This document shows, in pieces, positions 5,990 through 29,313 of a stretch of DNA of 64,000 bases. Under the pieces are notes generated by a model. The model made no database searches, was not told the DNA's origin, and saw nothing but the letters and a program-made list of their open reading frames with translations. Source of the DNA: Eretmocerus hayati (Eukaryota > Arthropoda > Insecta > Hymenoptera > Aphelinidae). Position numbers and translations under genes: made by a program. The DNA lies in assembly GCA_029851415.1 (NCBI GenBank), contig CM056741.1, positions 83,776,282 through 83,840,281 of the forward strand, read 5' to 3'. The number at the start of each line of letters is the position of its first letter. The stretch's first letter is position 1.

Positions 5990-6005
5990 GGCCCTGAAAA
6001 GGGCC
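5990..6005 (-). terminator. Histone-type 3' stem-loop
   Basis: The minus strand reads GGCCCTTTTCAGGGCC followed by ACCAAA. This matches the histone mRNA stem-loop layout: 6-bp stem, UUUC loop and ACCA 3' flank. It starts 20 nt past the stop of the 6026-6514 gene, in sense orientation. Confidence 0.85.
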
Positions 6006-6025
6006 GATTGGGTTGGGTGTTCACA

Positions 6026-6514
6026 TCAGTATTTCCTCCATTCATCCTCGAATGTAGGATAGTCGTGCTCGTAAACTTCAATGTCCAATGCCTGCATACG
6101 TGAATGATCTCCTTTGCCGATTCCACAGTCGTTCAACTTATCCACGCATACTTTCAGCTTGCCTAAATATTGTGTGGAACGCTGATACTTTTCGTTGGCG
6201 AGGTACATTGCAGCATCTTCAATGATCCGCTCACGATAGTAATCATAATAATTTTTGGTCTCAAAATTATAGAAGAAACGATCGGAAATCCACAAATTGT
6301 TATTCATGGTATCAAATCCAAACTTTGCTGTCTCCAAGCATGTCTTGCATAAATCATCCTCGTGGTAGAAATTGACCTTGACCTTGACTTCTCCAGGTAG
6401 AAGACTCCAAGTTTCGATGGCAGGCGCCCCTTTGTAAGAGTGTAAGACCTCGATCCTCTGAGATTTTCCAGCCTCATCGAGGAAGTGCACGCAGACAGTG
6501 AAGAAGTAACCCAT
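6026..6514 (-). CDS. Unrecognised Polinton accessory protein with histone-type mRNA end
   Basis: About 162 residues starting MGYFFTVCVHFLDEAGK. I chose this ATG because a TATA box (6566-6576) lies about 50 nt upstream and the longer frame begins only at GTG. The protein is soluble, with a CKTCLE pair of cysteines, an aromatic segment (FFYNFETKNYYDYYRERI) and an acidic C-terminus. I do not recognise the family. A histone-type stem-loop follows the stop. It is the only gene of that class at the left end of the element, next to the tRNA. Confidence 0.75.
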   Translation of the reverse strand: MGYFFTVCVHFLDEAGKSQRIEVLHSYKGAPAIETWSLLPGEVKVKVNFYHEDDLCKTCLETAKFGFDTMNNNLWISDRFFYNFETKNYYDYYRERIIEDAAMYLANEKYQRSTQYLGKLKVCVDKLNDCGIGKGDHSRMQALDIEVYEHDYPTFEDEWRKY

Positions 6515-6565
6515 CTTGCTCGTCACAAGTGCTGAACAAGAATGTTTCTCCACAGTTCTTCACTC

Positions 6566-6598
6566 GGTTTTATACCTTTCAGACGGCGCTCCCCCACT
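6566..6598 (-). promoter_or_regulatory. TATA box with upstream AGTGGGGGAG element
   Basis: On the minus strand AGTGGGGGAG (6598-6589) is followed after 12 nt by GGTATAAAACC (6576-6566). It serves the gene starting at 6514. The same G-rich element precedes several other TATA boxes in the element. Confidence 0.6.
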
Positions 6599-6632
6599 CT
6601 TCCAAAGTCGAGCCGCCGCCACCGCCTCCCAC

Positions 6633-6812
6633 TCATTTCCAAGGCCTCACTTTTTCATTATCCTTCTTGTCTGGACGAGGAACCTTAGGTGGGGCAGAAG
6701 AGGGATTGCGCCCATAACTCTTCCACTCGTCACGAGATGGCGCATCTTGATTTTTTCTGTAATCCTCTAAAAGAGGAGTACGCTCTTGCTTGTCGCTGTG
6801 ACTGTTACCCAT
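6633..6812 (-). CDS. Small MGNS-type protein, 59 aa
   Basis: The frame starts MGNSHSDKQERTPLLEDY and ends VRPWK. It is hydrophilic, proline- and lysine-rich. MGNS followed by small or polar residues is an N-myristoylation signal, and another gene of this element (22973-23470) starts MGNSTSSS. Support for a real gene is its own TATA box at 6851-6860, correctly spaced, and a good ATG. No histone-type stem-loop follows; the next promoter begins directly downstream. Function unknown; membrane association is inferred. Confidence 0.6.
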   Translation of the reverse strand: MGNSHSDKQERTPLLEDYRKNQDAPSRDEWKSYGRNPSSAPPKVPRPDKKDNEKVRPWK

Positions 6813-6850
6813 CGTATTGATAGAATGACGTCAGTTCAGCCGGTCAACGC

Positions 6851-6870
6851 CTTTTATAGTCACTCCCACT
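6851..6870 (-). promoter_or_regulatory. TATA box and AGTGGGAG element embedded in the upstream gene's stop region
   Basis: The minus strand reads AGTGGGAGTG followed by ACTATAAAAG. The AGTGGGAG element is formed by the last codons and stop of the 6860-7360 gene (GAG TGG GAG TGA). Gene end and next promoter therefore overlap, a virus-like degree of compaction. Confidence 0.65.
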
Positions 6871-7360
6871 CCATCTCATTTCTCTTGTGATATTTCAGAA
6901 ATTTTCTGATCAATTCCACATTATGCTGAGCACACACCGCTTTGTAAGACTCTGTGTGATGCGGACAGACAGTCACCAACTTCTGTGAGTATATCATTTC
7001 TAAGTTTACAAATCCTGATTCTGTGACGTCACGAACTTTGAATTTGAAGCGCTCCAACCACTTCTTCTTTATTTGACCCACTACGTGAATCATTGTTGCA
7101 TCCTTAAGATTTTCTCGGAGTGCATTGCCTATCTCAGTATAGGGAATTTCACCAGCCTCCCAAGAGATGCCATGATAAGCTCTTTCAAGCCAAGTATTTT
7201 CTCGTCTGTATTTCTCTGCAAATCTCCGGAACGAGAATGGTTGTTTGAATAGAAATACTCGAGGCTTCGAATCACCATTGAATGGAGCAATGGACAGCTC
7301 TTTCAAGACGAAATCATCTACTGGCTGCTTGAAACCTTGCATGTCCACCACGTACTCCAT
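6860..7360 (-). CDS. Conserved Polinton protein, MEYVVD family, paralogue 1
   Basis: 166 residues starting MEYVVDMQGFK. A paralogue at 21435-22031 shares MEY.VD.QGFK, YHGI.W, YV/HV.G..KK.WLE and a C-terminal histidine/cysteine-rich segment (CPHHTESYKAVCAQHN against CTHHYLCATPICAAIN). The alternating hydrophobic start followed by Asp, and a late His/Cys cluster, could fit an RNase H-like nuclease or a zinc site, but neither is demonstrated. The ATG lies 37 nt from a TATA box at 7397-7408. Unlike its paralogue it has no histone-type stem-loop. Confidence 0.75.
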   Translation of the reverse strand: MEYVVDMQGFKQPVDDFVLKELSIAPFNGDSKPRVFLFKQPFSFRRFAEKYRRENTWLERAYHGISWEAGEIPYTEIGNALRENLKDATMIHVVGQIKKKWLERFKFKVRDVTESGFVNLEMIYSQKLVTVCPHHTESYKAVCAQHNVELIRKFLKYHKRNEMEWE

Positions 7361-7396
7361 CTCGAGGCAGAATAACTTTTAGAGAATCCGACGGCT

Positions 7397-7419
7397 GCTT
7401 TTATAGAGTTTCTCCCACT
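7397..7419 (-). promoter_or_regulatory. TATA box with upstream AGTGGGAGA
   Basis: AGTGGGAGA (7419-7411) precedes CTCTATAAAAGC (7408-7397) on the minus strand, upstream of the ATG at 7360. Confidence 0.6.
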
Positions 7420-7427
7420 CTCCCTCC

Positions 7428-8666
7428 TCAAACAAGTTTATTCACGTTGCCGCTGATTGGATTATACTCAACAATCCTGTCGTGTAATATCAAACAATAG
7501 GCTGACGTATTCGCGGGAAAATTATTCCTAGATTCAAACTCGAGGCGAATATCAACCGGTGCGCTCTTCATTGTCTCATTTTGTTTTGAACAATCGATAA
7601 ATATCAATGGTTCGTACGCAATGAATTGAGATTTTGTTAACATGGGCTCATTCTCTTTTCCATAAAATGAACTCTGGAAATTAGAGTACATGTCATACAG
7701 AATGGCGAATTGATTGCGATCAATTTGCAAATTCATGTTTCCATATGGATAACATTGTGAGTTGAGAAATAGTTTGATATCACTAATACTGCAGTGGTCG
7801 AATTGACTCAAACTCTTGTCCTTGACATTCTTCCGATTCGTTTGAAAAGCAAGAATAACGAAGCGTGGTTTTTCGAGTTGACTCGAAGTCTTGACTGTCC
7901 ATACATGTTTTTGAGCAGTTGGTAAGAGCGGATACTCGTACAACTCCCACGTTCGAAAACTCATACTGATGGGCTTGTCTCTCTGAATATATTTGAAGAG
8001 ATGAATCTTCACTCTATCCGAGACCACGACATACGGCATGAGCCATTCTACTTTATTCAATGTGATTTTGAAATTTTCATACACCCGATTTTCACCATCC
8101 CGCACAGTAGTTTGAGTGACACAGTCCAAGTCCGAACGAGATCGGACAAGCACTAGTTCGTGCTTAGCATTGACAACAATTTTCCTATAATCTTCAGCAA
8201 AGCCGAACATAATGTTCAAAGGAATCAATACATCAAAATTGCCATTTGCGTCACATATCGAATGAGTTTCCTCTACATCAATCCAACCAGCATTCTCTAA
8301 TGTTACTTTCTGATTTGGTTGAAATGATAACCAACCTTTCATGACACTTGTCATACCCACATTCTTACACCTATCTATCTCCACCCCATTGACATTGTAA
8401 CTGCCATCTTCAAAAAGGTAACATGGGCCATTATTCACAAACTTTGTAGCAGTCAATGGAGTTCCATCTGTCTTGGTTAACTTACCGCTTACGTGGATTT
8501 TACTCCGAGAAGGGAGCAGACTCAAGTCTTGATGTTGAATTGATATTCTAATCTCATCACCGTTGTTGAATGTTGATGTGGCGTACGGCTGATGCGCGTG
8601 AACCTCGTAGTGCGCGACCGATTCGTCGTAAGCGACCGGTGATTGAATATTTAGAGCCTCTTCCAT
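7428..8666 (-). CDS. Putative major capsid protein (double jelly-roll)
   Basis: 412 residues, starting MEEALNIQSPVAYDES and containing HYEVHAHQPYATSTF and DEIRISIQHQDLSLLPSRS. The protein is rich in beta-strand-like alternation, with no signal peptide or membrane segment. Arrangement supports a capsid role: it is one of three consecutive minus-strand virion-type genes, next to the putative penton and the maturation protease, with the packaging ATPase just beyond. Arthropod Polintons carry a conserved protein of this type in this place. The double jelly-roll assignment is inferred from position and size, not from a visible motif. No stops or frameshifts are present. Confidence 0.7.
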   Translation of the reverse strand: MEEALNIQSPVAYDESVAHYEVHAHQPYATSTFNNGDEIRISIQHQDLSLLPSRSKIHVSGKLTKTDGTPLTATKFVNNGPCYLFEDGSYNVNGVEIDRCKNVGMTSVMKGWLSFQPNQKVTLENAGWIDVEETHSICDANGNFDVLIPLNIMFGFAEDYRKIVVNAKHELVLVRSRSDLDCVTQTTVRDGENRVYENFKITLNKVEWLMPYVVVSDRVKIHLFKYIQRDKPISMSFRTWELYEYPLLPTAQKHVWTVKTSSQLEKPRFVILAFQTNRKNVKDKSLSQFDHCSISDIKLFLNSQCYPYGNMNLQIDRNQFAILYDMYSNFQSSFYGKENEPMLTKSQFIAYEPLIFIDCSKQNETMKSAPVDIRLEFESRNNFPANTSAYCLILHDRIVEYNPISGNVNKLV

Positions 8667-8805
8667 TGCAACAGAAAAATATACAAGTTATTTTCCACCA
8701 CGGGCAGCAATTTTCAGACCGATGCTCTTCAGGAACTGAATGTTCTGTCGTGTTAACGGCTTCATAGCTCTTTGCCGACTGATGATGGCTCCGCATGGCT
8801 TTCGA

Positions 8806-8815
8806 CTTTTATACC
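8806..8815 (-). promoter_or_regulatory. TATA box of the capsid gene
   Basis: GGTATAAAAG on the minus strand, about 140 nt upstream of the ATG at 8666, which leaves a rather long leader. No AGTGGG element is adjacent. Confidence 0.45.
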
Positions 8816-8856
8816 CTCGGCCAACTTTGGTGTTGTAGACGATACCCATCGCAATG

Positions 8857-9549
8857 TCAGCTCGATAGTAAAAATCTGACCGTTATTGTCTCACCTCTGA
8901 AATTGATCAACTCCCCGTTCTCATCAACAATTCTTATCTCCAAGTACTTGATACAGTCCGCTCTCACGCGAAAAGGGATAAAGTGCCTCGGTACCTCTGT
9001 GATTTTATATCCTGATGGAACTGGTGGGAAAAAACCGTGGATCGTGTGCACTTTTTGCCCGTTCAGATAAGAGGTAGTGATTAGATTACACTCAATCCGT
9101 ATTGTGTTGACTTTGAGGATACGTATAGGTGAATCTGAGTTGTGTACTTGTCCAGCAATGAGCACACGTTTTGAGAATCCCAAGAGCGTAGCTATAGAAT
9201 CTTTGCGAGTGAAATCTATACTCTCGCTGCACTCAATCTCACTACAAAGAGTATTGTTGTTTGGCTTCAAACTGAATTTGATACCCAAGGGAGCCAGCTG
9301 TTTAACTAAATATTTCTCTATATCTTCTATCTCGTAGCTACCAGTTGGTATGACTATTGTATATTTTCCAACGTATAACCTATTACACCCAGTATCGATG
9401 TTGGGTATGGAGTTGAAGGTTTCAAATGCTAACAGACCTAGCTTGAAGGGCTTACGATATACACGCGCCTCAATTGGTGGAAAGAAAAAAGATGCAAGGA
9501 CTGATGAAGTACCAGTAAGACAAATCAAATATTCTTCTTCTTCTTCCAT
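8857..9549 (-). CDS. Putative minor capsid (penton-type, single jelly-roll) protein
   Basis: 230 residues starting with an acidic run (MEEEEEYLICLTGTSS). Beta-rich segments include VGKYTIVIPTGSYEIEDIEK, a KDSIATLLGFSKRVL stretch, and a C-terminus ending ETITVRFLLSS. Its place between the major capsid and protease genes is where Polintons keep the vertex protein. The fold is inferred. The ATG lies 53 nt from a TATA box (9605-9611) located inside the 3' end of the neighbouring protease gene. Confidence 0.65.
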   Translation of the reverse strand: MEEEEEYLICLTGTSSVLASFFFPPIEARVYRKPFKLGLLAFETFNSIPNIDTGCNRLYVGKYTIVIPTGSYEIEDIEKYLVKQLAPLGIKFSLKPNNNTLCSEIECSESIDFTRKDSIATLLGFSKRVLIAGQVHNSDSPIRILKVNTIRIECNLITTSYLNGQKVHTIHGFFPPVPSGYKITEVPRHFIPFRVRADCIKYLEIRIVDENGELINFRGETITVRFLLSS

Positions 9550-9588
9550 GATTCTCCCATGACGGTCGAATTGAAAATGATTAAGTAC

Positions 9589-10485
9589 TCACACTCTACC
9601 ATCCTTATATAGTCTCCCACTTAAGAAGTCGAGACATAAATGCCCACAGTTGAAACTATCATAATCCTGAAACCTTGTGTGATTATACTTCACCTCCTCG
9701 ACTCCGAGGTACAATAGTACTTCCACAGGCGGCTGTAGATCTCCAAAACTATCGAAATAGAAAACATCATCACATTGCTTCCGCCAGCAAACCCAATGAG
9801 TACCAGGATTGCGAGACGAATCTAGATTGCATATGCAGGCCTCATTCTCAAGGGGACCCGATGATGGCAAAGTATCTCTCATAAATACGCCTCTGAAATG
9901 TGGAATTCTCATCATTCGAGCATATTTCACCAAATCAAGATTTGTCAACGCACGGTTCGGGAGCGAGATGTTTTTTTTTTGCCCCTTTCGTGTCTTTTTC
10001 CTTCGCACAGTTTTTCGCTTCTTGATGCGGCGGGTCGTCTTCTTTTTCGTTGTGATGAATCGTGATGGAATGTGCAGACCCAAACCAGTCTTGTATGGTT
10101 TGAGATAGAGACCCTTCCCAAGAGCAATCTGTTCCATGGCCCTGTTATGCCTCGAATCTTCTTCGTATTGCTTCTTAGCAGACTTGGCGTCGTTGATAGC
10201 CTTGACTACACCTGCAGCACCTCCAGCTAAAGCACCCGTTGCGCTCAATCCCGCAAACAAAGGAACTAGGAATGGTAAAAATCCACCAACCTTCTTTGGT
10301 ATCAGTAGAATCCGAGGTGTCTTGACGTACTTCCTTCCTCCGACCGCTTTTATAGCCTCGCGAGCACCCTTGACTGCTGATCTTATGACAACTCGAGAAT
10401 TTCGACTAGGTTTGATTGATTTCAGAGCAGCTTTGACGACTTTGTTGAAAGCAATTCCCATACCCAACTTGGACTTTAATTTCAT
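9589..10485 (-). CDS. Basic/hydrophobic core segment fused to adenain-like maturation protease
   Basis: 298 residues from the first ATG after the break; the true gene probably starts at 10824. Residues ~60-100 contain a hydrophobic glycine/alanine-rich segment (FLPFLVPLFAGLSATGALAG), as in membrane-active minor virion proteins. Residues ~145-175 are a Lys/Arg block (TRRIKKRKTVRRKKTRKG) that could bind DNA. Residues ~215-298 are a Ulp1/adenain-type cysteine protease with H230 (GTHWVCW), D245 (FYFDSFG), Q273 and C280 (NCGHLC). All catalytic residues are present. The role would be virion protein cleavage during maturation. Confidence 0.85.
   Translation of the reverse strand: MKLKSKLGMGIAFNKVVKAALKSIKPSRNSRVVIRSAVKGAREAIKAVGGRKYVKTPRILLIPKKVGGFLPFLVPLFAGLSATGALAGGAAGVVKAINDAKSAKKQYEEDSRHNRAMEQIALGKGLYLKPYKTGLGLHIPSRFITTKKKTTRRIKKRKTVRRKKTRKGQKKNISLPNRALTNLDLVKYARMMRIPHFRGVFMRDTLPSSGPLENEACICNLDSSRNPGTHWVCWRKQCDDVFYFDSFGDLQPPVEVLLYLGVEEVKYNHTRFQDYDSFNCGHLCLDFLSGRLYKDGRV
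9605..9621 (-). promoter_or_regulatory. Penton promoter inside the protease coding end
   Basis: On the minus strand AGTGGGAGA is followed by CTATATAAGG. Both lie within the last codons of the protease frame (stop at 9589), another case of overlap between coding end and promoter. Confidence 0.6.
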
Positions 10486-10551
10486 AGCATTAGTTACGAA
10501 ATAAGCTGCAGCTTTTTCGCCTACACCAGCGTCCTCGGCAGAAACTCGTGC

Positions 10552-10824
10552 TCAAGCTTTATCAGCGAGAATTTTATCAGCTATATTCCTCTCCTTTATA
10601 TTCTCCCGATTCTGAGAGTAAGCTATATCGTGCTCGCGGCCCGCGGTGTCTAGTGGATTAATCCCCTTATCACCTCTAGCGATACGCTTTTTGAGTTTGG
10701 TGCCAGGCCCACAGAATTGATATCCTGGAATATGGAGCTCAACAGGCAATTTATTGAGAACTTTATTCACTAGCCCACGTCCGATCTCACGCTTTCGCGG
10801 AAGACGTCTGTAAGTGATCATCAC
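10552..10824 (-). pseudogene. Phospholipase A2-like domain, cut off by an in-frame TGA
   Basis: 90 residues. FCGPGTKLKKR resembles the calcium loop and GREHDIAYSQ the HD..Y catalytic helix of the PLA2 domain found in parvovirus capsid proteins and many Polintons, where it helps cross membranes. The cysteine usually preceding the HD helix is Gly here. The frame stops at TGA 10552-10554 but stays open without another stop for 22 codons to the ATG at 10485 and on through the protease. The simplest reading is one PLA2-basic-protease gene (10824 to 9589) broken by a single nonsense change. Confidence 0.8.
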
Positions 10825-10852
10825 TCTTCGACTGATGAAGCATGACTGATCC

Positions 10853-10880
10853 GCGGCTATATAAGCGCGCTATTTATACC
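10853..10880. promoter_or_regulatory. Divergent promoter between PLA2-protease and ATPase genes
   Basis: GGCTATATAAGC (10855-10866) faces the plus-strand ATPase and TATAAATAGC (10878-10869, minus) faces the PLA2-protease gene. The two ATGs are only 88 nt apart. Confidence 0.6.
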
Positions 10881-10912
10881 CCTCGAGCCATTCAGGAACT
10901 TACCCTCCTCCG

Positions 10913-11617
10913 ATGAACATGGACTTTGCAGAGCAGGACCTCAAATTGCCAGTCGTCAATTTTGATGTTGGCGAAGAGAAGAGAGTTGGTAGACATGGAG
11001 AGCTGTTACCCGACAGCATTCGCGCCGTTTTTTGTGGCCCATCAAACTGCGGTAAGACAAATACACTGCTAGCTCTGATCACACATCCGAATGGGTTGAA
11101 ACTCGAGAATGTTTACGTGTATTCAAAATCATTGAACCAACCGAAATATCAGTTCTTAAAAAAGTTGTTGGAGTCAATCGATGGGATCCGATATCATCCG
11201 TTTGGTGAGCATGAGTCCGTAGTATCGCCTGATGAAGCATTACCCAACAGTATCATGATCTTTGATGACGTAGCAACCGAGAATCAAGACCATATAAGGA
11301 ATTATTTTTGTATGGGGAGACACAAGAGTGTCGATAGTTTTTATCTCGCACAGTCCTACGCGCGTGTGCCAAAACAGCTAGTACGAGACAATGTTAATCT
11401 ACTTGTTTTGTATCGCATGGATCTCCTGAATAGTCGCCACGTGTATGATGATCACGTCAATTCAGATATGACGTTCGAAGCATTCAAAAGTCTATGCTCA
11501 CATTGCTGGAATAACGATAAATTCGGTTTTCTAGTGATTGATAAAGATAGACCGCTGAATAAAGGTCGATACAGAAAGGGCTTCGACAATTTTGCTATAA
11601 ATATAGGTGCCCAATGA
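10913..11617 (+). CDS. FtsK/HerA-superfamily DNA packaging ATPase
   Basis: 234 residues. Walker A is GPSNCGKT (residues 42-49) and Walker B NSIMIFDDVA (112-121). GRHKSVDSFYLAQSYARVPKQ follows, typical of A32-like packaging ATPases, which translocate DNA into capsids. The ATG is a few codons after the predicted transcript start, since the TATA box is at 10855-10866. It opens a tight plus-strand cluster of four genes separated by only 30-44 nt. The frame is intact. Confidence 0.9.
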   Translation: MNMDFAEQDLKLPVVNFDVGEEKRVGRHGELLPDSIRAVFCGPSNCGKTNTLLALITHPNGLKLENVYVYSKSLNQPKYQFLKKLLESIDGIRYHPFGEHESVVSPDEALPNSIMIFDDVATENQDHIRNYFCMGRHKSVDSFYLAQSYARVPKQLVRDNVNLLVLYRMDLLNSRHVYDDHVNSDMTFEAFKSLCSHCWNNDKFGFLVIDKDRPLNKGRYRKGFDNFAINIGAQ

Positions 11618-11661
11618 TTAACACCAATTAGTTGACCTTCGACTATCAAGGTGTATGCACA

Positions 11662-12600
11662 ATGGATTTCCAAAAGAATTCAGATATCTTACATCAACTC
11701 GTTCAATCGAGGGATGCTATCCGTAAAAAATACAATTTATTGAAACATGGCAAAGCGCATATTGAGAAAAATCTCAAGGAGACTTTCAAGCCGATCGTTG
11801 ATCCCCTTCAACAGCTGATATCGCAAACTCAAAATAAGCCCACTCATCGAGAGAAAATCCGACCGCGTAAACTCAATTTCACGCCAGGACTCGACCAATC
11901 GAGGCTGGATGAATCAACGATGAATGAATCAACATTTTTAAACGATACTGTACGAAACAACATCTCATTCGGAACTGCTGATGACGATAGTGATGTAGAC
12001 ACCAAAGAGCAGTCGTTCTTCTCACCAGCTCCAACATCTGATAAATATTTCGCTCTACTGAATAAGAATGCCCAGGGTAGCCCACTCGATAAAATATATG
12101 GTGTGAGTAAAGTTGGTCAGAGGATCATGCTCGGCAATTCCGATGTAGAATTCACTGATAATGATTTTATAATCAATAACACTCGATTTCCAAAAACAGT
12201 TGGTTTGCTCGAGCTTCTTTTTAAAAAAGCACCGAGCCAGCAGTTGATCAGTATAAACGATATGACTAATTATCGGAAAATTCTCGATATATCGAGTGCT
12301 CACAGGAAGAGACATAGTCCTGATGAGCCCATACGAGAGCAAAAGAGTACTAAATTCACTACAATCATAGCTCCATTATTCCCTAATCCTAAAAAAAGCA
12401 AATCTGTTGGAAAAGGTTTGCCTCAATATAAGGTTGCTAAAATTGGAAGAGCTTTTGATTACGTCTATTGGGATGACCCGAATGGATTAGTGGATCGATT
12501 ACGGCTTCTTGTAGCAGAGCAAGCAGCAGGAAATACGAGTCATCACAATGAAATACAGTCTATAATCGAAGAATTGCAAGAAGCAGGGTATATATATTGA
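11662..12600 (+). CDS. Conserved Polinton protein of unknown function, 312 aa
   Basis: I start at the ATG of MDFQKNSDILHQLVQSRDA; ten codons further upstream are open but begin only with TTG. The N-terminal ~70 residues are charged and helical, probably coiled coil. A Ser/Thr/Asp-rich linker follows (~85-125). The C-terminal part contains SPLDKIYGVSK, a KKSKSVGKGLPQY basic patch and FDYVYWDDPNGLVDRLRLL. The order next to the ATPase and integrase is typical of Polintons, and the conserved C-terminal half suggests a structural or DNA-associated role, but I assign no function. Confidence 0.75.
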   Translation: MDFQKNSDILHQLVQSRDAIRKKYNLLKHGKAHIEKNLKETFKPIVDPLQQLISQTQNKPTHREKIRPRKLNFTPGLDQSRLDESTMNESTFLNDTVRNNISFGTADDDSDVDTKEQSFFSPAPTSDKYFALLNKNAQGSPLDKIYGVSKVGQRIMLGNSDVEFTDNDFIINNTRFPKTVGLLELLFKKAPSQQLISINDMTNYRKILDISSAHRKRHSPDEPIREQKSTKFTTIIAPLFPNPKKSKSVGKGLPQYKVAKIGRAFDYVYWDDPNGLVDRLRLLVAEQAAGNTSHHNEIQSIIEELQEAGYIY

Positions 12601-12630
12601 GTAAAGAGTAGTGCAGCCATCAGTCTCATC

Positions 12631-13014
12631 ATGAGCATCGACGTATTCGGACGTAAACTTGAGAAGAGTGAGGGCGCTCCTGGTCCTCCGGGCATCGGTT
12701 TCAGTTTAACAGAAGATGGACAATATGATGTTGCAAATAAACAAATTTGTAATCTCAGATCTCCCGAGAGACCCTTGGACGCAGTCAATTTCGACACGTT
12801 GCTTCAACATCTGAAGAATATTACGACGAGTTTAGAGAGTAAAATAACTGAAATTAATAACAATATGAAAATTCTAAGTGATCGAGTTGACATGGATCGA
12901 GGTGACATTGAAAACGAGCTTGACATGTTTCATCGAGTGATTTTCTCCATAAGATATAACATGGATTTACCGGAGGATTATGTCAATAAATATGGAGTCA
13001 CCACCAACACATGA
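12631..13014 (+). CDS. Possible fibre- or spike-like small protein
   Basis: 127 residues. A short collagen-like GAPGPPGIGF (residues ~15-24) precedes QYDVANKQICNLRSPERPLD and an AVNFDTLL segment. The latter resembles the neck of trimeric viral fibres, where domains read NK.i.nl..P....DAVN. A heptad-type coiled coil follows (LKNITTSLESKITEINNNMK). This combination suggests a trimeric appendage, but that is inference. It sits 30 nt after the previous gene and 32 nt before the integrase. No signal peptide is visible. Confidence 0.65.
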   Translation: MSIDVFGRKLEKSEGAPGPPGIGFSLTEDGQYDVANKQICNLRSPERPLDAVNFDTLLQHLKNITTSLESKITEINNNMKILSDRVDMDRGDIENELDMFHRVIFSIRYNMDLPEDYVNKYGVTTNT

Positions 13015-13046
13015 CTCATTCCTGTTTGCATCATTGATTCAGCAAC

Positions 13047-13952: not shown

Positions 13953-14148
13953 AAATTTTTGGATGATGAGAGCCCCAACCATCGCTCTCACCAGTGAGGT
14001 GCAGCCATCCAACTCATATTCAATCAGTTTGCATTGAATTCTCAATGAAAAGAGTTGGAGTTTGAGTTGGTTTCGACCTCTCCTTAGGGAATGGATGTGT
14101 GGAGGGGTTTCTTAGAAGAGAATACACGAAAGTTGAATTCAAAAATGT

Positions 14149-16777: not shown

Positions 16778-16823
16778 GTCCTTGTAGTTCAAGTTACAAT
16801 TTGAGTGCGCAGGGCCGCGATAT

Positions 16824-20507: not shown

Positions 20508-20637
20508 AATAAAATTTCCATCATGAAATTTTGGGAATTTATTTAGTTCCCCACCGTCCTTCAAGATCGACGAGACCAAAGGTTCAACTTGTATATTAAC
20601 CATCAAGGACGAAAAAATCTACCAAAATCACTTATGA

Positions 20638-20650
20638 AATCTGTGTAATA
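20638..20650. repeat. PLE2 target duplication, right copy
   Basis: AATCTGTGTAATA, identical to 18032-18044. Confidence 0.85.
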
Positions 20651-21311: not shown

Positions 21312-21395
21312 GTGGGGGAGTTACGGCGGCTCGAGTCAGCGGTGGGCTCTGATTGGTTGAGAGGATCGGGAGAGCCGCGAGGAAGGCTATATAAT
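21312..21395 (+). promoter_or_regulatory. Promoter with GTGGGGGAGTTAC and TATA box
   Basis: GTGGGGGAGTTAC (21312-21324) and CTATATAAT (21387-21395) lie upstream of the ATG at 21435. The region also separates this gene from the divergent polymerase gene (ATG at 21202). Confidence 0.6.
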
Positions 21396-21434
21396 GAGCG
21401 TTATGTCGCGAGGGAAATCATTCTCCTCCGAGAG

Positions 21435-22031: not shown

Positions 22032-22067
22032 AAAAATAAAGATTACCTACCCCCCATGAAAAAAATC

Positions 22068-22083
22068 GGCCCTTTTAAGAGCC
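22068..22083 (+). terminator. Histone-type stem-loop, variant
   Basis: GGCCCTTTTAAGAGCC, 37 nt past the stop in sense orientation. One stem pair is mismatched and the loop is UUUA, so it is the most diverged of the series. AATAAA-like signals nearby (22035-22040 and 22147-22152) suggest a polyadenylation alternative. Confidence 0.65.
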
Positions 22084-22401
22084 AAAAAAAATTTACAACG
22101 TACGACAGACTATCGTTTGATGACATAATGTGACTTCATCCCACCTCAATAAAGATTACCCTCAAGAGTATTGAGTTGTATGATTGAAACTCTAATTCAA
22201 AATAATGTTGAGATCTTAAGAATGTCAGCTCTTCAATAAAAATGATTCTGATAAATTTTCAATGATAGATCGGAGCTGATATTGAATTTCAGTTTAGAAG
22301 CGAAGTATCAGAAGACTACATCATTTTTTCCAATAAACCAAAATGAAATCAAATACTATTATAGAGGACGAAAGCGAGTTCCATCGTTTTCAATGATTTG
22401 T
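22084..22401. other. Polinton intergenic, no gene seen
   Basis: A/T-rich, with two AATAAAGATTACC copies (22035 and 22147) and no convincing frame or promoter. Confidence 0.5.
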
Positions 22402-22417
22402 GGCCCTGAAAAGGGCC
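22402..22417 (-). terminator. Histone-type 3' stem-loop
   Basis: The minus strand reads GGCCCTTTTCAGGGCC, starting 19 nt past the stop of the 22436-22711 gene, with CAATC on its 5' side and ACAAA on its 3' side. Confidence 0.85.
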
Positions 22418-22435
22418 GATTGTTTCTCCTCAAAT

Positions 22436-22711
22436 TCAATTCTTCTTCATCTCAGCATCAGTGGACTTATTCTCAGTCGTTGGGAATTTAATTTCAACCT
22501 TGTGCTCTACAAAAGTCAGCACTAAAGTCTCGCTTGGCTCTTTGACTGCTTCATCTTCACACTTGAGAACCCACTCAAGAATTTCATCCAGAATCGCATC
22601 ATCCATGTCGTGTGGATTGGGTTGTTGTCCCCAACACTCTTCAGCATCCGCCAGAAACAAAGTCAAGGCAAGATCCGTATCGAGCTCATCGAATTCTTGC
22701 TTCTTCTCCAT
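22436..22711 (-). CDS. Small acidic accessory protein with histone-type mRNA end
   Basis: 91 residues starting MEKKQEFDELDTDLALTLFL, strongly acidic in the middle (HDMDDAILDEILEWVLKCED) and potentially amphipathic helical, with a lysine-rich end. The ATG is preceded by a TATA box (TTTTATAAG, 22758-22766). No family recognised. Acidic helices of this kind can be histone- or transactivation-type interaction surfaces; that is speculation prompted by the histone-like neighbour. Confidence 0.65.
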   Translation of the reverse strand: MEKKQEFDELDTDLALTLFLADAEECWGQQPNPHDMDDAILDEILEWVLKCEDEAVKEPSETLVLTFVEHKVEIKFPTTENKSTDAEMKKN

Positions 22712-22784
22712 TTCGCCGCTGAGTCTCGAATGATGATTCCTCGAGAAAAGATGTGACTTTTATAAGCATTTTTTCATCATCATA

Positions 22785-22806
22785 GGTGGGGGTGGGGGAG
22801 TTACTC
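22785..22806. promoter_or_regulatory. G-rich promoter element GGTGGGGGAGTTACTC
   Basis: It lies upstream of the TATA box at 22758-22766 and is followed by an inverted half (ACCCCCACTCC, 22819-22829). The same GTGGG(G)GAGTTAC motif occurs at 21312 and, inverted, at 24263. Confidence 0.5.
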
Positions 22807-22941
22807 GTTGATCTGAACCCCCACTCCGCATCTCGTATCAAGAGAATGAGTATTTCTTCCATCATAAGTAGAAGAAAGATCGATATTGCTATGCGAATCT
22901 TGCATCAAGAGAATAATTTCCACTCGTTTGATCAGATTGGT

Positions 22942-22957
22942 GGCCCTGAAAAGGGCC
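22942..22957 (-). terminator. Histone-type 3' stem-loop
   Basis: The minus strand reads GGCCCTTTTCAGGGCC then ACCAATC, starting 15 nt past the stop of the 22973-23470 gene. Confidence 0.85.
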
Positions 22958-22972
22958 AATTGTTTTGTAGAT

Positions 22973-23470
22973 TCAAGGGAACTCTAAAAATTTCTTCTTT
23001 CTCAGCTTTGCCTCTCTAACATGTGGCGGATCTCCTGTTGGTACACGCTGAGGTCGAGTTGGGCGGCGTATCCACGGATCGTATTGAATCGTTGAGACAC
23101 AATCCAACGAGAGTTGCTCAAAAGACCGCAAGATTGCGGAGACATTCGGTGGGCGCAGATCCGAGCGCACTGTACCAACATAAATGGGCTTTGGTGTTCT
23201 GATTAGGCGCCGGATCCTCGTCCTCTTGCATCTCTCACACATACCTCGACGTTTCTTTGGTTTTTTAGCCAGAAGTCGCACAGCTCTCTTGATTTCATTT
23301 GCTATTTCTCCACACGGTTCCTTCTTACAAACTGTGAATTCCTTCGGATGCCTCGGTTTGCTGCTGCTACTTTCCACGACACTAGAAGTGAATGAGAATC
23401 CCATCTTCTCTTGCCACCTAAGAGGTGTCCCGAGCTCCCTCCTTCTGCTGCTGCTTGTAGAGTTTCCCAT
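22973..23470 (-). CDS. Basic MGNS-type accessory protein with histone-type mRNA end
   Basis: 165 residues starting MGNSTSSSRRRELG, a candidate N-myristoylation signal as in the 59-residue protein at 6633-6812. The middle is very basic, with paired cysteines (KKPKKRRGMCERCKRTRIRR), perhaps a zinc or nucleic-acid-binding patch. The C-terminus is Pro/Arg-rich. A TATA box (23503-23510) lies about 35 nt upstream of the ATG. No known family recognised. It is not histone-like by sequence. Confidence 0.65.
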   Translation of the reverse strand: MGNSTSSSRRRELGTPLRWQEKMGFSFTSSVVESSSSKPRHPKEFTVCKKEPCGEIANEIKRAVRLLAKKPKKRRGMCERCKRTRIRRLIRTPKPIYVGTVRSDLRPPNVSAILRSFEQLSLDCVSTIQYDPWIRRPTRPQRVPTGDPPHVREAKLRKKKFLEFP

Positions 23471-23519
23471 GATGGAATGATGATAAACCCAAGAATCAGT
23501 CGTTATATAAGCCTTTTCA

Positions 23520-23700
23520 GCTCAGTTTAGGGTCTCGTTGTCAAGGCGACACCAGTAGTGGGGCTAATTTGAATAGTGCGGACGTCGGAGAGAGATAGAC
23601 TGCTGCTGCTGCTGCCACGGACTTATTCAGATCCTCGTTGCCAAGGTGATGCCAGTAGTGGGGGCGATTTGAAGATTGCGGACGTCAGAGAGAGACTGCT
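23520..23700. promoter_or_regulatory. Duplicated promoter block, about 108-bp period
   Basis: Two copies of CTCGTTG(T/C)CAAGG..GA..CCAGTAGTGGGG..ATTTGAA..TGCGGACGT with a following CTGCTGCTG run (about 23532-23605 and 23634-23705). A GTTGCC(A)AGG half-site resembles an RFX X-box. The AGTAGTGGGG part is the G-rich element found before other genes of this class. Confidence 0.5.
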
Positions 23701-23743
23701 GCTGACACGAATGACTTTGACATACGTTTTAGAATTGTTTGTT

Positions 23744-23759
23744 GGCCCTGGAAAGGGCC
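23744..23759 (-). terminator. Histone-type 3' stem-loop of the H3-like gene
   Basis: The minus strand reads GGCCCTTTCCAGGGCC: a 6-bp stem with a one-base change from the series, starting 15 nt past the stop of the H3-like gene. 5' flank CAATC, 3' flank AACAA. Confidence 0.8.
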
Positions 23760-23774
23760 GATTGGAGAGATGAA

Positions 23775-24155
23775 TTAATATCGCTTGCTTCGAATCAAAT
23801 TAGCAAGCTCCATATCACGGGCGATGACTGTCACTCTGTGTGCATGTTGAGCACATGAGTTGGCATCGGCAAAGACCTCGACCAGGAACTGCTCGCTCAC
23901 TTCCTGTAATGCCATCACCGCAGCGCTTTGGAATTTTATCCCTTCCTTGAAACTCCGGGCGATGTCTCGAACAATGCGCTGGAAGGTTCGCTTCTTGATC
24001 ACAAAGCCGCCATTCTTCTTTTCGAGTATGTTGTGCCTCTGTACAGGTGTGCCAGGTTGGATCCGATGTGGGGTTGTGACACCTTTCAGTCGAGTAGAGT
24101 TGATGTCGGCTCTGTCCTCGATGAATTTTTTTGATGTAGCCTCTATCCGCACCAT
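23775..24155 (-). CDS. Histone H3-like protein encoded by the Polinton
   Basis: 126 residues from the ATG at 24155 (MVRIEATSKKF), chosen because a TATA box at 24211-24220 precedes it at normal distance; the longer frame starts at TTG upstream of the TATA box. The histone fold is clear: RTFQRIVRDIARSFKEGIKF, then QSAAVMALQEVSEQFLVEVF, then CAQHAHRVTVIARDMELA, in the order and spacing of H3 alpha1 to alpha3 including the H3-specific C-terminal interface. The pre-fold PHRIQPGT fits the H3 alphaN region. The N-terminal tail lacks the usual K4, K9 and K27 contexts. Its mRNA end is a histone-type stem-loop. Role inferred: packaging or marking of element DNA, or competition with host H3. Confidence 0.9.
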   Translation of the reverse strand: MVRIEATSKKFIEDRADINSTRLKGVTTPHRIQPGTPVQRHNILEKKNGGFVIKKRTFQRIVRDIARSFKEGIKFQSAAVMALQEVSEQFLVEVFADANSCAQHAHRVTVIARDMELANLIRSKRY

Positions 24156-24210
24156 TGCTGCTCGCTGCTGCTGCTCGATTGGTAATGAATTCCACAAGTT
24201 CCGTGTGCCT

Positions 24211-24314
24211 CTTTTATAGACATCAGGAGAGCGGTGGCGCTGCAATCCTCACACATTAGCGCAGAGTTACTCCCACTACAGTCTTCGGCGGAGATTAATG
24301 AAAATCTATAAAAG
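24211..24314. promoter_or_regulatory. Divergent promoter of the H3-like gene and the 24347 gene
   Basis: TCTATAAAAG on the minus strand (24220-24211) serves the H3-like gene and CTATAAAAG on the plus strand (24306-24314) serves the gene at 24347. Between them lies GAGTTACTCCCACTAC (24264-24279), the inverted G-rich element of this gene class. Confidence 0.7.
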
Positions 24315-24346
24315 TGGTCTCAAAATTGCATTAAAATCATTTCACC

Positions 24347-24733
24347 ATGGAAAGCGACGACTGCTTAGAAATACGAGACGACGCTCTTGTCGAAGAGATG
24401 GAGCAAGAACTTTCTTTTTCTCAAGAAATTGAGAACTCTACAGAAAGTTTATCTCAATTGAGAATTTGTGAAACACCAGAGCCCGAAAGTAGTTCGAGCG
24501 AGAGTCTCTATCCGATGGAGGACTCTTCTGATGGCTACATCACGATCTCATCAGTCTCATCTTCTCCAGAAGCCGTTGAATTACCACCAAGGTCACTCAA
24601 AAGGAGGAGAACGACAAGTACCAGCAGCGGTAATAGCAGTGACAATGAGCAACAACCACGGTGTAGACGGCGACTGAGATACACACCAAAGAGGCGGCGG
24701 CTTATTGCAAGAAGGAACAGTAATAAATGGTGA
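24347..24733 (+). CDS. Acidic-to-basic Ser-rich accessory protein
   Basis: 128 residues. The first half is acidic and Ser/Glu-rich (EEMEQELSFSQEIENSTES). The middle has GYITISSVSSSPE. The last ~40 residues are strongly basic (RCRRRLRYTPKRRRLIARR), as in DNA- or nucleosome-binding proteins. ATG with good context 33 nt after the TATA box. Ends with a canonical histone-type stem-loop. No family recognised; a chromatin-type role is suggested by composition and by the divergent promoter shared with the H3-like gene. Confidence 0.7.
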   Translation: MESDDCLEIRDDALVEEMEQELSFSQEIENSTESLSQLRICETPEPESSSSESLYPMEDSSDGYITISSVSSSPEAVELPPRSLKRRRTTSTSSGNSSDNEQQPRCRRRLRYTPKRRRLIARRNSNKW

Positions 24734-24770
24734 AAGACTTTGGAGAAAAACTTGAGAAGCAAAAACAATC

Positions 24771-24786
24771 GGCCCTTTTCAGGGCC
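24771..24786 (+). terminator. Histone-type 3' stem-loop, canonical
   Basis: GGCCCTTTTCAGGGCC followed by ACCAAAG, with AACAATC before it, 37 nt past the stop. This is the closest match in the window to the animal histone mRNA signal. Confidence 0.88.
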
Positions 24787-24975
24787 ACCAAAGTATTGGA
24801 CGTGAACAAAACCATTCGTTTTTCAAAGTTACAAACAGATTAACAACATGCAGTTGCTCCGCAACAATCAGAGTCGAGCTCGATTCTCATTGGCACGGAG
24901 CAACGACCATGAGTGTGAGAGAGATTCACACAGAATATAGAATGAATAGTTCTCTACGTTGTGATATTATTGGTT

Positions 24976-24991
24976 GGCCCTGAAAAGGGCC
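24976..24991 (-). terminator. Histone-type 3' stem-loop
   Basis: The minus strand reads GGCCCTTTTCAGGGCC then AACCAAT, starting 24 nt past the stop of the 25015-25377 gene. Confidence 0.85.
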
Positions 24992-25014
24992 GATTGTTAG
25001 TAACAAAAAAAAAT

Positions 25015-25377
25015 TTAATCCTCTTCTTCACTACTGCTGATGAGCCTTTGACGCTTCCTCGGTGCAGCTTCTTCATCCTCCTCCTCATCGCTGCTGGATA
25101 TCAGTCGTCTGCGATTTTGTCTGAGACTGGGCCTCGGTGGTGTTATAGGCGGCGATGGAATTGCTGCTACTGCTGCTCGACGAGCCTCCTCTCGAGCTGC
25201 AAAGCGCGCCTCCATCTCAACTTGGAGCTGACGTAGCTCTTCTGCAATGAATCGAGAAAAGTTGGCTTCAACAATGTCGAAGTCACCAGGCTCCAAGTTC
25301 TCCAGGTCCTCTGCGATCTCCTCCTCTAGCTGATCATCCTCGCTGACTTCTGCTGCGATGTATTTGGATGGATCCAT
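25015..25377 (-). CDS. Acidic protein with repeated basic-acidic motif
   Basis: 120 residues starting MDPSKYIAAEVSEDDQ. The N-terminal half is acidic and helical (EEEIAEDLENLEPGDFDIVE, then ELRQLQVEMEARFAAREEARR). The C-terminus has two copies of a motif: RRRLISSSDEEEDEE and RKRQRLISSSEEED. The repeats combine an arginine nuclear signal, a casein-kinase-2-like SSSDEEE cluster, and LISSS plus acid that resembles a SUMO-interacting motif. The ATG lies ~35 nt from TATATAAC-like sequence at 25411-25418. Function unknown. Confidence 0.68.
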   Translation of the reverse strand: MDPSKYIAAEVSEDDQLEEEIAEDLENLEPGDFDIVEANFSRFIAEELRQLQVEMEARFAAREEARRAAVAAIPSPPITPPRPSLRQNRRRLISSSDEEEDEEAAPRKRQRLISSSEEED

Positions 25378-25410
25378 GGCTGATGAGTGGAGATAATGCT
25401 CATAACTTAC

Positions 25411-25505
25411 CCGTTATATGCACTTGGGTGAAACTCTACCGCACCAATCATGACCACTGTTGGCCAACCATCCCCATGGCAACGCGCGAGTGGTGGGGGT
25501 AATTT
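25411..25505 (-). promoter_or_regulatory. Promoter region with TATA-like box, GTGGGGGTAATTT and CCATGGCAAC
   Basis: A TATA-like ATATAACG is followed upstream by a CCATGGCAAC palindromic X-box half-site (25474-25483) and by GAGTGGTGGGGGTAATTT (25488-25505). These are the same two element types as the 23520-23700 block. Confidence 0.45.
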
Positions 25506-25749
25506 ATGGCTAGTAGCACATGTGTCGGTAGATGTAGTGGAGGGAGGCTAAAGAAGAATATTGATTCTTTTAGAATGACCTTGATGTCCTACTATCACTC
25601 GAAGTAGGAGAAAAGCGAGTTTGTTCTGTATGAATATAATTACAGGGCCAAATACACCATGGACTCAGTTAGACTATGGCTCTAGACTGGGAGGTGATCA
25701 TTCAAGTTCAGGGATATATAAGTATATTGAGAGCATATAGTATAATGTT
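25506..25749. other. Polinton intergenic leading into tandem array
   Basis: No gene recognised. The first decayed repeat unit begins about 25750. Confidence 0.5.
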
Positions 25750-28700
25750 AGGTCAAATGTTCATTCTTTTCATCAAGAATGGCCAGATGGGACATATATA
25801 TACCTTTCCTGATGATCATAGAGGTGTGATAGACAATATGGGTTTCCAACATGGTTATGTCAAGGAAAAAGTAACTGAAAAAATCAAAACTTCTCAAAAC
25901 ATGTTTTAACCACTGAATTGACTTGTGTCCTTGTAATATCTCAAAGAACACACCTTGATCTAGCTGAAACATGTGTCAGAAGCATTCCAGAATGGTTTTG
26001 AGAAGATTTTTGAACAAAAGTTGACTTTTCACTTTCCAAAAATTTGTTGATTTTTTTACTCAGAAATGGTTCGTTTTAGAGGAAATGACCAAGAGTAATG
26101 AAAAATCACAAAAAAATCAAAGATTATGGTGGTATTTTTTGTTTAGGTCTGCAAGCAACTTGAGAAAATGTCACAATTGGCGTATCGAATGGGTTTTTCA
26201 GAAAACTCACTTGTGAGCATCCCAAATGGACTTGGAGGGTTGGAAATGGTTTCTTTCATTAAGATAAGCTAGATGGGGCATAGATATACACTTTCTGATG
26301 ATCATAGAGGTGTGAAAGACAATATGGGTTTCCAACATGGTCATGTCAAAGAAAGTGTGACTGAAAAATTCAAAACTTCTCAAAACATGTTTTAACCACT
26401 GAATTGACTTGTATCCTTGTAATATCTCAAAGAACACACCTCAATCTGTTTGAAGCATGTGTCAGAAGCATTCCAGAATGGTTTTGAGAAGATTCTTGAA
26501 CAACTTGAGAAAATGTCCAAATCAACGTATCGAAGGGTTTTTTCAGAAAACTCACTTGTGAGCATCCCAAATGGACTTGGAGGGTTGGAAATGGTTTCTT
26601 TCATCAAGATAAGCTAGATGGGGCATAGATATACACTTTCTGATGATCTTAGAGGTGTGAAAGACAATATGGGTTTCCAACATGGTCATGTCAAAGAAAG
26701 TGTAACTGAAAAACTCAAAACTTCTCAAAACATGTTTTAACCACTGAATTGACTTGTATCCTTGTAATATCTCAAAGAACACACCTTAATCTGATTGAAG
26801 CATGTGTCAGAGGCATTCCAGAATGGTTTTGAGAAGATTCTTGAACAACTTGAGAAAATGTCCAAATCAACGTATCGAAGGGTTTTTTCAGAAAACTCAC
26901 TTTTGAGCATCCCAAATGGACTTGGAGGGTTGGAAATGGTTTCTTTCATCAAGATAAGCTAGATGGGGCATAGATATACCTTTTCTGATGATCTTAGAGG
27001 TGTGAAAGACAATATAGGGGTTTCCAACATGGTCATGTCAAAGAAAGTGTAACTGAAAAATTCAAAACTTCTCAAAACATGTTTTAACCACTGAATTGAC
27101 TTGTATCCTTGTAATATCTCAAAGAACACACCTTAATCTGATTGAAGCATGTGTCAGAAGCATTCCAGAATGGTTTGGAGAAGATTTTTGAACAACTTGA
27201 GAAAATGTCCAAATCAACGTATCGAAGGGTTTTTTCAGAAAACTCACTTGTGAGCATCCCAAATGGACTTGGAGGGTTGGAAATGGTTTCTTTCATCAAG
27301 ATAAGCTAGATGGGGCATAGATATACACTTTCTGATGATCTTAGAGGTGTGAAAGACAATATGGGTTTCCAACATGGTTATGTCAAAGAAGGTGTAACTG
27401 AAAAATTCAAAACTTCTCAAAACATGTTTTAATCACTGAATTGACTTGTGTCCTTGTAATATCTCAAAGAACACACCTTGATCTAGCTGAAACATGTGTC
27501 AGAAGCATTCCAGAATGGTTTTGAGAAGATTTTTGAACAAAAGTTGACTTTTCACTTTCCAAAAATTTGTTGATTTTTTTACTCAGAAATGGTTCGTTTT
27601 AGAGGAAATGACCAAGAGTAATGAAAAATCACAAAAAAATCAAAGATTATGGTGGTATTTTTTGTTTAGGTCTGCAAGCAACTTGAGAAAATGTCACAAT
27701 TGGCGTATCGAATGGGTTTTTCAGAAAACTCACTTGTGAGCATCCCAAATGGACTTGGAGGGTTGGAAATGGTTTCTTTCATTAAGATAAGCTAGATGGG
27801 GCATAGATATACACTTTCTGATGATCATAGAGGTGTGAAAGACAATATGGGTTTCCAACATGGTCATGTCAAAGAAAGTGTGACTGAAAAATTCAAAACT
27901 TCTCAAAACATGTTTTAACCACTGAATTGACTTGTATCCTTGTAATATCTCAAAGAACACACCTCAATCTGTTTGAAGCATGTGTCAGAAGCATTCCAGA
28001 ATGGTTTTGAGAAGATTCTTGAACAACTTGAGAAAATGTCCTAATCAACGTATCGAAGGGTTTTTTCAGAAAACTCACTTGTGAGCATCCCAAATGGACT
28101 TGGAGGGTTGGAAATGGTTTCTTTCATTAAGATAAGCTAGATGGGGCATAGATATACACTTTCTGATGATCTTAGAGGTGTGAAAGACAATATGGGTTTC
28201 CAACATGGTCATGTCAAAGAAAGTGTAACTGAAAAACTCAAAACTTCTCAAAACATGTTTTAACCACTGAATTGACTTGTATCCTTGTAATATCTCAAAG
28301 AACACACCTTAATCTGATTGAAGCATGTGTCAGAAGCATTCCAGAATGGTTTTGAGAAGATTCTTGAACAACTTGAGAAAATGTCCAAATCAACGTATCG
28401 AAGGGTTTTTTCAGAAAACTCACTTTTGAGCATCCCAAATGGACTTGGAGGGTTGGAAATGGTTTCTTTCATCAAGATAAGCTAGATGGGGCATAGATAT
28501 ACCTTTTCTGATGATCTTAGAGGTGTGAAAGACAATATAGGGGTTTCCAACATGGTCATGTCAAAGAAAGTGTAACTGAAAAATTCAAAACTTCTCAAAA
28601 CATGTTTTAACCACTGAATTGACTTGTATCCTTGTAATATCTCAAAGAACACACCTTAATCTGATTGAAGCATGTGTCAGAAGCATTCCAGAATGGTTTG

Positions 28701-29170
28701 GAGAAGATTTTTGAACAACTTGAGAAAATGTCCAAATCAACGTATCGAAGGGTTTTTTCAGAAAACTCACTTGTGAGCATGTCAAATGGACTTGGAGGGT
28801 TGGAAATGGTTCCTTTCATCAAGATAAGCTAGATGGGGCATAGATATACACTTTCTGATGATCTTAGAGGTGTGAAAGACAATATGGGTTTCCAACATGG
28901 TTATGTCAAAGAAGGTGTAACTGAAAAATTCAAAACTTCTCAAAACATGTTTTAATCACTGAATTGACTTGTGTCCTTGTAATATCTCAAAGAACACACT
29001 TGAATCTAGTTGAAGCATGTGTCAGGAGCATTCAGAATGGTTTTGAAAAGATTTTTGAACAAAAGTTGACTTTTCACTTTCCAAAAATTTGTTGATTTTT
29101 TACTCAGAAATGGTTCATTTTGGAGGAAATGACCAAGAGTAATGAAAAATCACAAAAAAATCAAAGATGA
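25750..29170. repeat. Higher-order tandem repeat, 345-bp units in about 1.52-kb blocks
   Basis: Basic units of 345-348 bp share CTTGTGAGCATCCCAAATGG, GATGGGGCATAGATATAC and CTCAAAACATGTTTTAA. A unit carrying an extra ~180-bp segment (TTGACTTTTCACTTTCC onward) recurs at 26021, 27544 and 29065, giving a period of 1521-1523 bp. Corresponding units in successive blocks are nearly identical (for example 26207-26952 and 27730-28475), showing recent duplication of a four-unit block. Open frames of 71-76 codons recur on the minus strand, but unit lengths vary around 345-348 and frames do not join, so I do not call coding. Unusual cargo for a Polinton. Confidence 0.9.
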
Positions 29171-29297
29171 TGATGGTTTTTTTGTTCAGAGGGTTGTGGG
29201 TACTACGGATAAGCCTAAGTTTCTATTCTCATTTTTCAACTTTTTTCTCAATTTACATCAGGAGCAGAGTATGTGCTCAACGTTTGAATCGTTTCGT

Positions 29298-29313
29298 GGC
29301 CCTGAAAAGGGCC
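29298..29313 (-). terminator. Histone-type 3' stem-loop
   Basis: The minus strand reads GGCCCTTTTCAGGGCC then ACGAAAC, starting 13 nt past the stop of the 29327-29611 gene. Confidence 0.85.

Follow-up and report, generated by a model that had tools for sequence, protein, structure and literature searches.

Why do eight genes of a mobile, virus-like element end in hairpins that resemble the 3' ends of animal histone messages? The question arises in a 64,000-nucleotide stretch of the hymenopteran Eretmocerus hayati (assembly GCA_029851415.1, contig CM056741.1, positions 83,776,282 to 83,840,281), referred to here as the window, in which an adintovirus-class Polinton of 25.4 kb occupies positions 5514..30902. 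As described in PMC7026596, histone pre-mRNA is bound at its stem-loop by SLBP, the 5' end of U7 pairs with a downstream element, and CPSF73 cuts between the two, at a distance from the stem-loop of 5 nt in mouse and 4 nt in Drosophila. Here, we propose that the eight messages, one of which encodes a histone H3 homologue, would very probably be bound by host SLBP and cut by the U7 small nuclear ribonucleoprotein (snRNP) between the hairpin and a downstream ACG, which would leave them without poly(A).

Eight hairpins and the element downstream

The whole window was searched for GGCCCTTTTCAGGGCC with at most three mismatches. This returned nine matches against 0.21 expected, a number reached in none of 100 shuffles; the ninth, at 30320, is a different and weaker hairpin. 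Six sites carry GGCCCTTTTCAGGGCC exactly, namely 5990..6005 (−), 22402..22417 (−), 22942..22957 (−), 24771..24786 (+), 24976..24991 (−) and 29298..29313 (−). Site 23744..23759 (−) departs from it by one mismatch, located in the loop (variant GGCCCTTTCCAGGGCC), and site 22068..22083 (+) by two (variant GGCCCTTTTAAGAGCC), which leave a C-A mismatch in the stem. RNA folding predicts a stem of 6 bp and a loop of 4 nt for seven of the eight sites, with a seventh pair at 22942, and the predicted energies of seven of the hairpins, which are G+C-rich, range from -11.4 to -12.2 kcal/mol.

All eight hairpins are in the sense orientation, on the same strand as the stop codon that precedes them. The gap from stop codon to hairpin is 13 nt for g29327, 15 nt for both g22973 and the histone H3 gene, 18 nt for g22436, 20 nt for g6026, 23 nt for g25015, 36 nt for g21255 and 37 nt for g24347. 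Under uniform placement, the estimated probability that all eight would fall in the zone 13-39 nt after one of 22 gene ends is 3.5e-16. The other 14 gene rows, among them the capsid, ATPase, integrase and polymerase genes, have no hairpin within 400 nt after the stop. A first-pass annotation of this DNA had placed the eight hairpins at these positions, had put them 13-39 nt after stop codons on both strands in the sense of the gene, and had described the capsid, ATPase, integrase and polymerase genes as lacking them. The positions, the orientation and the lack of the signal in those four genes were borne out, and the range was corrected to 13-37 nt. The flanks it regarded as common are exact in fewer sites, CAATC before the hairpin in just five of the eight and ACCAA after it in just three; the positions that are constant in all eight are A at -4, -3, +1 and +5.

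A further constant feature is located downstream, where the trinucleotide ACG starts 14 to 17 nt after every hairpin and on its strand. The distance is +14 for hairpins 5990 (ACG at 5974..5976, −) and 24771 (24800..24802, +), +15 for 22068 (22098..22100, +), 22402 (22385..22387, −), 22942 (22925..22927, −) and 29298 (29281..29283, −), and +17 for 23744 (23725..23727, −) and 24976 (24957..24959, −). The background chance of an ACG in such a window of positions is 3.5-3.9% per site. The next best 3-mer covers six sites, and in 5000 rotations of the downstream sequences no 3-mer covered all eight in a 4-position window. The element reads AACG in six of the eight cases. Two columns do not vary at all, +14 with A and +30 with T, and a pair of such columns occurred in none of 20000 rotations. 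By analogy with histone pre-mRNA, the ACG stands about where U7 snRNP would bind, and could be described as part of a putative histone downstream element (HDE).

All 4227 Rfam families were scanned against the first 31 kb of the window. Histone3 (RF00032, gathering score 34 bits) matched in 1-31000 at exactly the eight sites, with 33.8 bits at 22402, 33.4 at 22942, 33.0 at 5990, 29.4 at 24976, 29.2 at 24771, 29.1 at 29298, 22.6 at 23744 and 19.8 at 22068, and with E values from 2.7e-6 to 0.45 for the 31 kb searched. No further Histone3 match was found in 1-31000 or in 31001-64000, up to E 5. In a leave-one-out test, a profile that spanned the hairpin plus six bases to its left and right was scored over the 64 kb, and every left-out site stood more than 25 bits above any non-site. 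The sequence comparisons thus support hairpins of the histone-mRNA 3' type that appear to work like the RF00032 signal. Since the scores are below the cut-off, "works like" is the proper wording, and formal membership of RF00032 is not assigned; the histone-type assignment of the first-pass annotation therefore stands in that all eight sites match the family, and falls short in that none attains its curated score.

The eight sites, aligned without gaps, have a mean pairwise identity of 95% within the hairpin, 76% over the six bases that precede it and 72% over the five that follow. Further downstream it is 38% from +6 to +13, 44% from +14 to +18, 28% from +19 to +29 and 58% from +30 to +32. 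Beyond -6 and beyond +33 it is 26-28%, which is the background. Flanks that are unrelated while the hairpin is 95% identical point to a conserved signal and not to a copied repeat, and the comparison that could have exposed a dispersed repeat thus ruled it out. The hairpins appear to be units kept by selection or separately arisen, and not the recent copy of a larger repeat. Chance occurrence is ruled out by the hairpin counts, the placement and ACG statistics and the leave-one-out profile, and a bacterial-type terminator by the eukaryotic nature of the element.

When the whole window was scanned by structure for histone-like hairpins, many places were returned, most of them AU-rich. Besides the eight sites, three places have perfect 6-pair stems with at least three G/C in the first five stem bases; 30207 and 30320 lie within the element and 60369 lies outside it. 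In the hairpins 30207-30222 (+) and 30320-30335 (+), T-A replaces G-C at the first pair; in 30207, T-A also replaces C-G at the third. Hairpin 30207 is followed by AAAACGTATGAAC, which resembles the sequence at 5990 and 23744 but has its ACG at +10. Neither hairpin gave a match when scanned against Rfam. A model built on the eight sites assigns 30207 13.0 bits (E 4.1), under five chance-like places, and does not list 30320. No ATG-started open reading frame (ORF) of at least 60 aa ends directly before either hairpin; an open frame of 35 codons that has no ATG runs up to 30202, upstream of 30207. Both hairpins were excluded from the count of signal sites. They could be the end of an untranslated RNA, or decayed sites.

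Genes that carry the signal

The gene in front of hairpin 23744 encodes a histone H3 homologue (23775..24155, −) of 126 aa with an altered N-terminal tail. Its ORF, taken from 24245, matches the Pfam family Histone (PF00125) at 6.8e-24, and the best match among H3 chains in the PDB is at 7.8e-27. Over a 107-residue core the protein is 48% identical to canonical H3. The canonical N-terminal tail is unmatched, as the PDB alignments start at residue 15-28 of the homologue. Two protein relatives were found among 11 candidates, both from Eretmocerus hayati. One (P0001) represents 8 member sequences and is 98% identical to the homologue; the other (P0002) is a diverged H3 relative that begins with MVRTKATSKK, reminiscent of ARTKQTARK, the start of H3. 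This beginning is consistent with an origin from a host H3 whose tail is being eroded. An AlphaFold2 model based on an alignment of 3 sequences had a predicted local distance difference test (pLDDT) score of 32.9 and was discarded. The presence of H3 among the eight genes and the ACG element at all eight sites go beyond the first-pass annotation, and together they strengthen the histone-signal interpretation.

Among the proteins of the seven other genes, several are strongly acidic or strongly basic. The product of g6026 (6026..6514, −) has 162 aa; none of 4 candidates is a homologue of it at E 1e-3, and its AlphaFold2 model (pLDDT 32.2) was also discarded. Gene g21255 (21492..22031, +) has an ORF open from 21255, and its true start is likely 21435 or 21492, as judged from a TATA near 21388. 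Its protein is a 36% paralogue of the one encoded at 6860-7360 (−), whose gene has no stem-loop. Acidic proteins are encoded by g22436 (22436..22711, −; 91 aa), g25015 (25015..25377, −; 120 aa) and g29327 (29327..29611, −; 94 aa). The 128-aa product of g24347 (24347..24733, +) has an acidic N-terminal half and a basic C-terminal half, and that of g22973 (22973..23470, −) is a basic protein of 165 aa with the N-terminus MGNS. This start recalls that of a 59-aa ORF at 6633-6812 (−), which begins with MGNSHSDKQERTPLLEDY and has a TATA and GTGGGAG upstream and no stem-loop. Upstream of g22973 and beyond the H3 hairpin, a 62-nt block is duplicated with 84% identity (23534-23595 and 23634-23695).

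For the seven non-H3 proteins, Pfam gives nothing above its curated cut-off and PHROG no informative match, the one weak match, of g29327 (E 0.0024), being to a family of unknown function. None of the eight signal proteins has an LxCxE motif. A GTGGG(A/G)G-type motif is found within 300 nt upstream of all eight signal genes and of 4 of 13 others (p 0.005), for a motif that was picked after these promoters had been read. The table behind this count is without PolB, and two of the motif occurrences are each shared by a divergent gene pair. The motif may be promoter-like, and we offer it as a lead only.

Proposed processing and its alternatives

In the mechanism that we propose, the element probably took up a replication-dependent H3 gene of its host along with the 3' signal of that gene. 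The signal would then probably have spread to, or been selected at, seven unrelated neighbour genes. Host SLBP would bind the stem-loop of the eight transcripts, and host U7 snRNP would cut 4-5 nt after the hairpin, before the ACG, to give mRNAs without poly(A). Because the named virion and replication genes have no such signal, the mRNAs of the element probably fall into two classes by their 3' ends. An S-phase-linked expression of the signal genes, which the first-pass annotation had suggested, would be the least certain part of the proposal. SLBP is limited to part of the cell cycle in mammals and not clearly so in Drosophila, so that the case for S-phase timing is weaker than that for ends without poly(A).

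Several observations weigh against this proposal. The gathering score of Histone3 is attained by none of the eight sites, and none is listed at the curated threshold; the best site has 33.8 bits and the three best lie within 1 bit of the cut-off, while 23744 and 22068 reach just 22.6 and 19.8 bits. The fold at 22068 is interrupted by an internal mismatch; of 200 shuffles of this site, 8 fold at least equally well. The stem is never altered on both sides among the eight sites, so there is no support from covariation. The presence of AATAAA within 400 nt after the stop does not separate signal genes (one of eight) from the others (six of 14; p 0.19). Gene g21255 has four AATAAA in that range, on both sides of hairpin 22068, and, given also the broken stem pair of this hairpin, its message may be polyadenylated. 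The marks of a U7 snRNA gene are an Sm site, AAUUUGUCU, and a 3' hairpin. Across the window, the number of U7-type Sm sites is not above chance (6 one-mismatch matches against 10.1 expected), and the processing machinery would therefore be that of the host. The downstream motif is unlike the AAAGAG purine core of mammalian HDEs; PMC7026596 describes Drosophila HDEs as AU-rich and thus also unlike this core. Finally, when public viral contigs were scanned with two patterns, single matches turned up on 7 contigs in one scan and on 1 in the other, and no contig had several hairpins. The model of the eight sites assigns the 7 matches 19.2-23.8 bits, on the hairpin core only, compared with 58.8-63.1 at the sites used to build it, and one more weak place, on contig L006, 19.5 bits. 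No relative of the capsid or of H3 was found on the viral contigs, and no capsid relative in phages.

The same observations can be set against other explanations of the hairpins. A captured H3 3' untranslated region might have recombined onto the other genes, leaving relic copies that are now functionless. The six hairpins that agree to the letter would suit such an event, for which the histone gene would be a natural source. However, the flanks are at the background of 26-28% while the hairpin, the A at +1 and +5, the ACG and the T at +30 persist; old functionless copies would have lost the hairpin too, and young ones would share their flanks. As all eight also lie in sense and at most 37 nt from a stop, we regard relic copies as very improbable. 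A device acting on DNA or on transcription, for example a cruciform, a terminator or an insulator that separates convergent genes, would be in keeping with strong G+C hairpins near gene ends, seven of them within the energy range given above, and with the location of the pairs 22068/22402 and 24771/24976, which are flanked by convergent genes. Hairpins 22942 and 23744, however, are flanked by tandem genes. Moreover, the loop, the flanks and the downstream element are directional, and the orientation follows the gene in eight of eight cases on both strands, which makes such a device scarcely credible.

It is also unlikely that the hairpins serve the stability, translation or localisation of mRNAs that are polyadenylated further down, with SLBP or a protein of the element as their reader. 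The AATAAA motifs on both sides of the g21255 hairpin agree with this possibility, as does the role that SLBP also has in translation and decay. It would leave unexplained an ACG/T element that lies outside the predicted mature mRNA, and seven of the eight genes lack an AATAAA within 400 nt of the stop, a difference from the other genes that, as said, is not significant. On balance, we think it fairly probable that a stolen H3 3' end was made into a regulon, in which eight genes would be expressed as poly(A)-less messages under the histone, replication-coupled RNA machinery, and the virion and replication genes would use other ends.

Apart from those of replication-dependent histones, almost no genes are known to use the stem-loop/U7 pathway, and, to our knowledge, this would be the first non-histone regulon on the SLBP/U7 pathway. 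The proposal, if true, would show that the histone 3' signal is a module that new genes can acquire. It would provide a means to couple viral genes to the DNA replication of the host and to evade poly(A)-selected RNA-seq, and the eight sites would form a natural multi-substrate set from which the pairing rule of wasp U7 could be read.

The Polinton and its relation to known systems

The element is delimited by terminal inverted repeats (TIRs) of 295 nt with 99% identity (5513-5807 and 30609-30903) and, on their outer sides, by the 7-nt direct repeat TATCACA (5507-5513 and 30903-30909). The double-jelly-roll major capsid gene (7428..8666, −) was identified by Pfam at 4.2e-111. The putative A32-like packaging ATPase (10913..11617, +) reached 19.8 bits (6e-4), under the Pfam cut-off of 22.8. 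The integrase (13047..13952, +) has an rve core and a chromodomain-like end that is under the Pfam cut-off, and a type-B DNA polymerase domain was found by Pfam at 15197..16687 (−). None of these four genes has a stem-loop. The ORF 16881-18107 (−) presumably encodes the N-terminal part of the polymerase, as judged from its position, and has no Pfam polymerase match. A PLA2-like domain is clear in the element (1.8e-11). By position, the penton and the protease are putatively assigned to two further genes, the latter without a Pfam protease match. The TIRs, short target duplication, double-jelly-roll capsid, rve integrase, PolB and PLA2-like domain identify the element as an adintovirus-type Polinton, and it had been called a Polinton in the first-pass annotation. 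This copy may be defective, as its polymerase region is split over separate frames.

Other features lie inside and around the Polinton. A Penelope-like retroelement at 18040-20598, beside the polymerase region, has 367-nt inverted arms and encodes reverse transcriptase and GIY-YIG (18440-20167). By eye, similar reverse transcriptase/GIY-YIG ORFs (3422-4501) and direct repeats (3003-3615 and 31386-32040) flank the Polinton on both sides. A repeat in nine register copies, spaced 345-486 nt apart, extends from 25768 to 29181 between g25015 and g29327, and five copies contain a minus-strand ORF of 70 aa. A predicted tRNA-Lys(TTT) gene at 5876-5946 (+), found by Rfam (69.6 bits) and ARAGORN, lies between the left TIR and the 5990 hairpin, with a run of nine T close behind it.

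Hymenopteran adintoviruses and Polintons, such as that of Megastigmus, share with this element the double-jelly-roll capsid, the PLA2-like domain, the rve integrase, PolB, the TIRs and, putatively, the A32-like ATPase. The capsid has 1238 relatives in the protein search, and those named by organism among the 120 listed are hymenopterans; a Megastigmus wasp adintovirus hexon (P0025), among the matches listed, is 63% identical to it. Compared with these relatives, which are known by protein, the present element may be distinct in its right-end block of small genes with a histone H3 and histone-type 3' signals. Among virus-borne histone-fold genes, the H4 of bracoviruses is presumably another example. 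In a literature survey of titles and abstract openings, with subscription journals mostly outside its scope, no histone-type ends were reported on Polinton or other viral genes. 'Histoid' genes of adomaviruses and a tailtomavirus, as presented in PMC11071296, are likewise histone-fold genes carried by viruses, and a search of its text found neither 'stem-loop' nor 'SLBP'. Here, in contrast, the gene is a clear H3, it resides in a Polinton, and its 3' signal is common to seven other genes.

The closest comparison is with the 3' signal of animal histone mRNAs (RF00032). Both have a 6-bp stem, a 4-nt loop, a G-C second pair, an A-rich 5' flank and an AC(C)A-like 3' flank, and both have a common element about 15 nt downstream and uninterrupted ORFs, one of the genes here being H3 itself. 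In the Polinton, however, the scores are below the Rfam cut-off and the downstream core is ACG, AACG in six of eight cases, and not purine-rich. Seven of the eight genes are non-histone genes in a mobile, virus-like element, and this would be a new use of a known signal.

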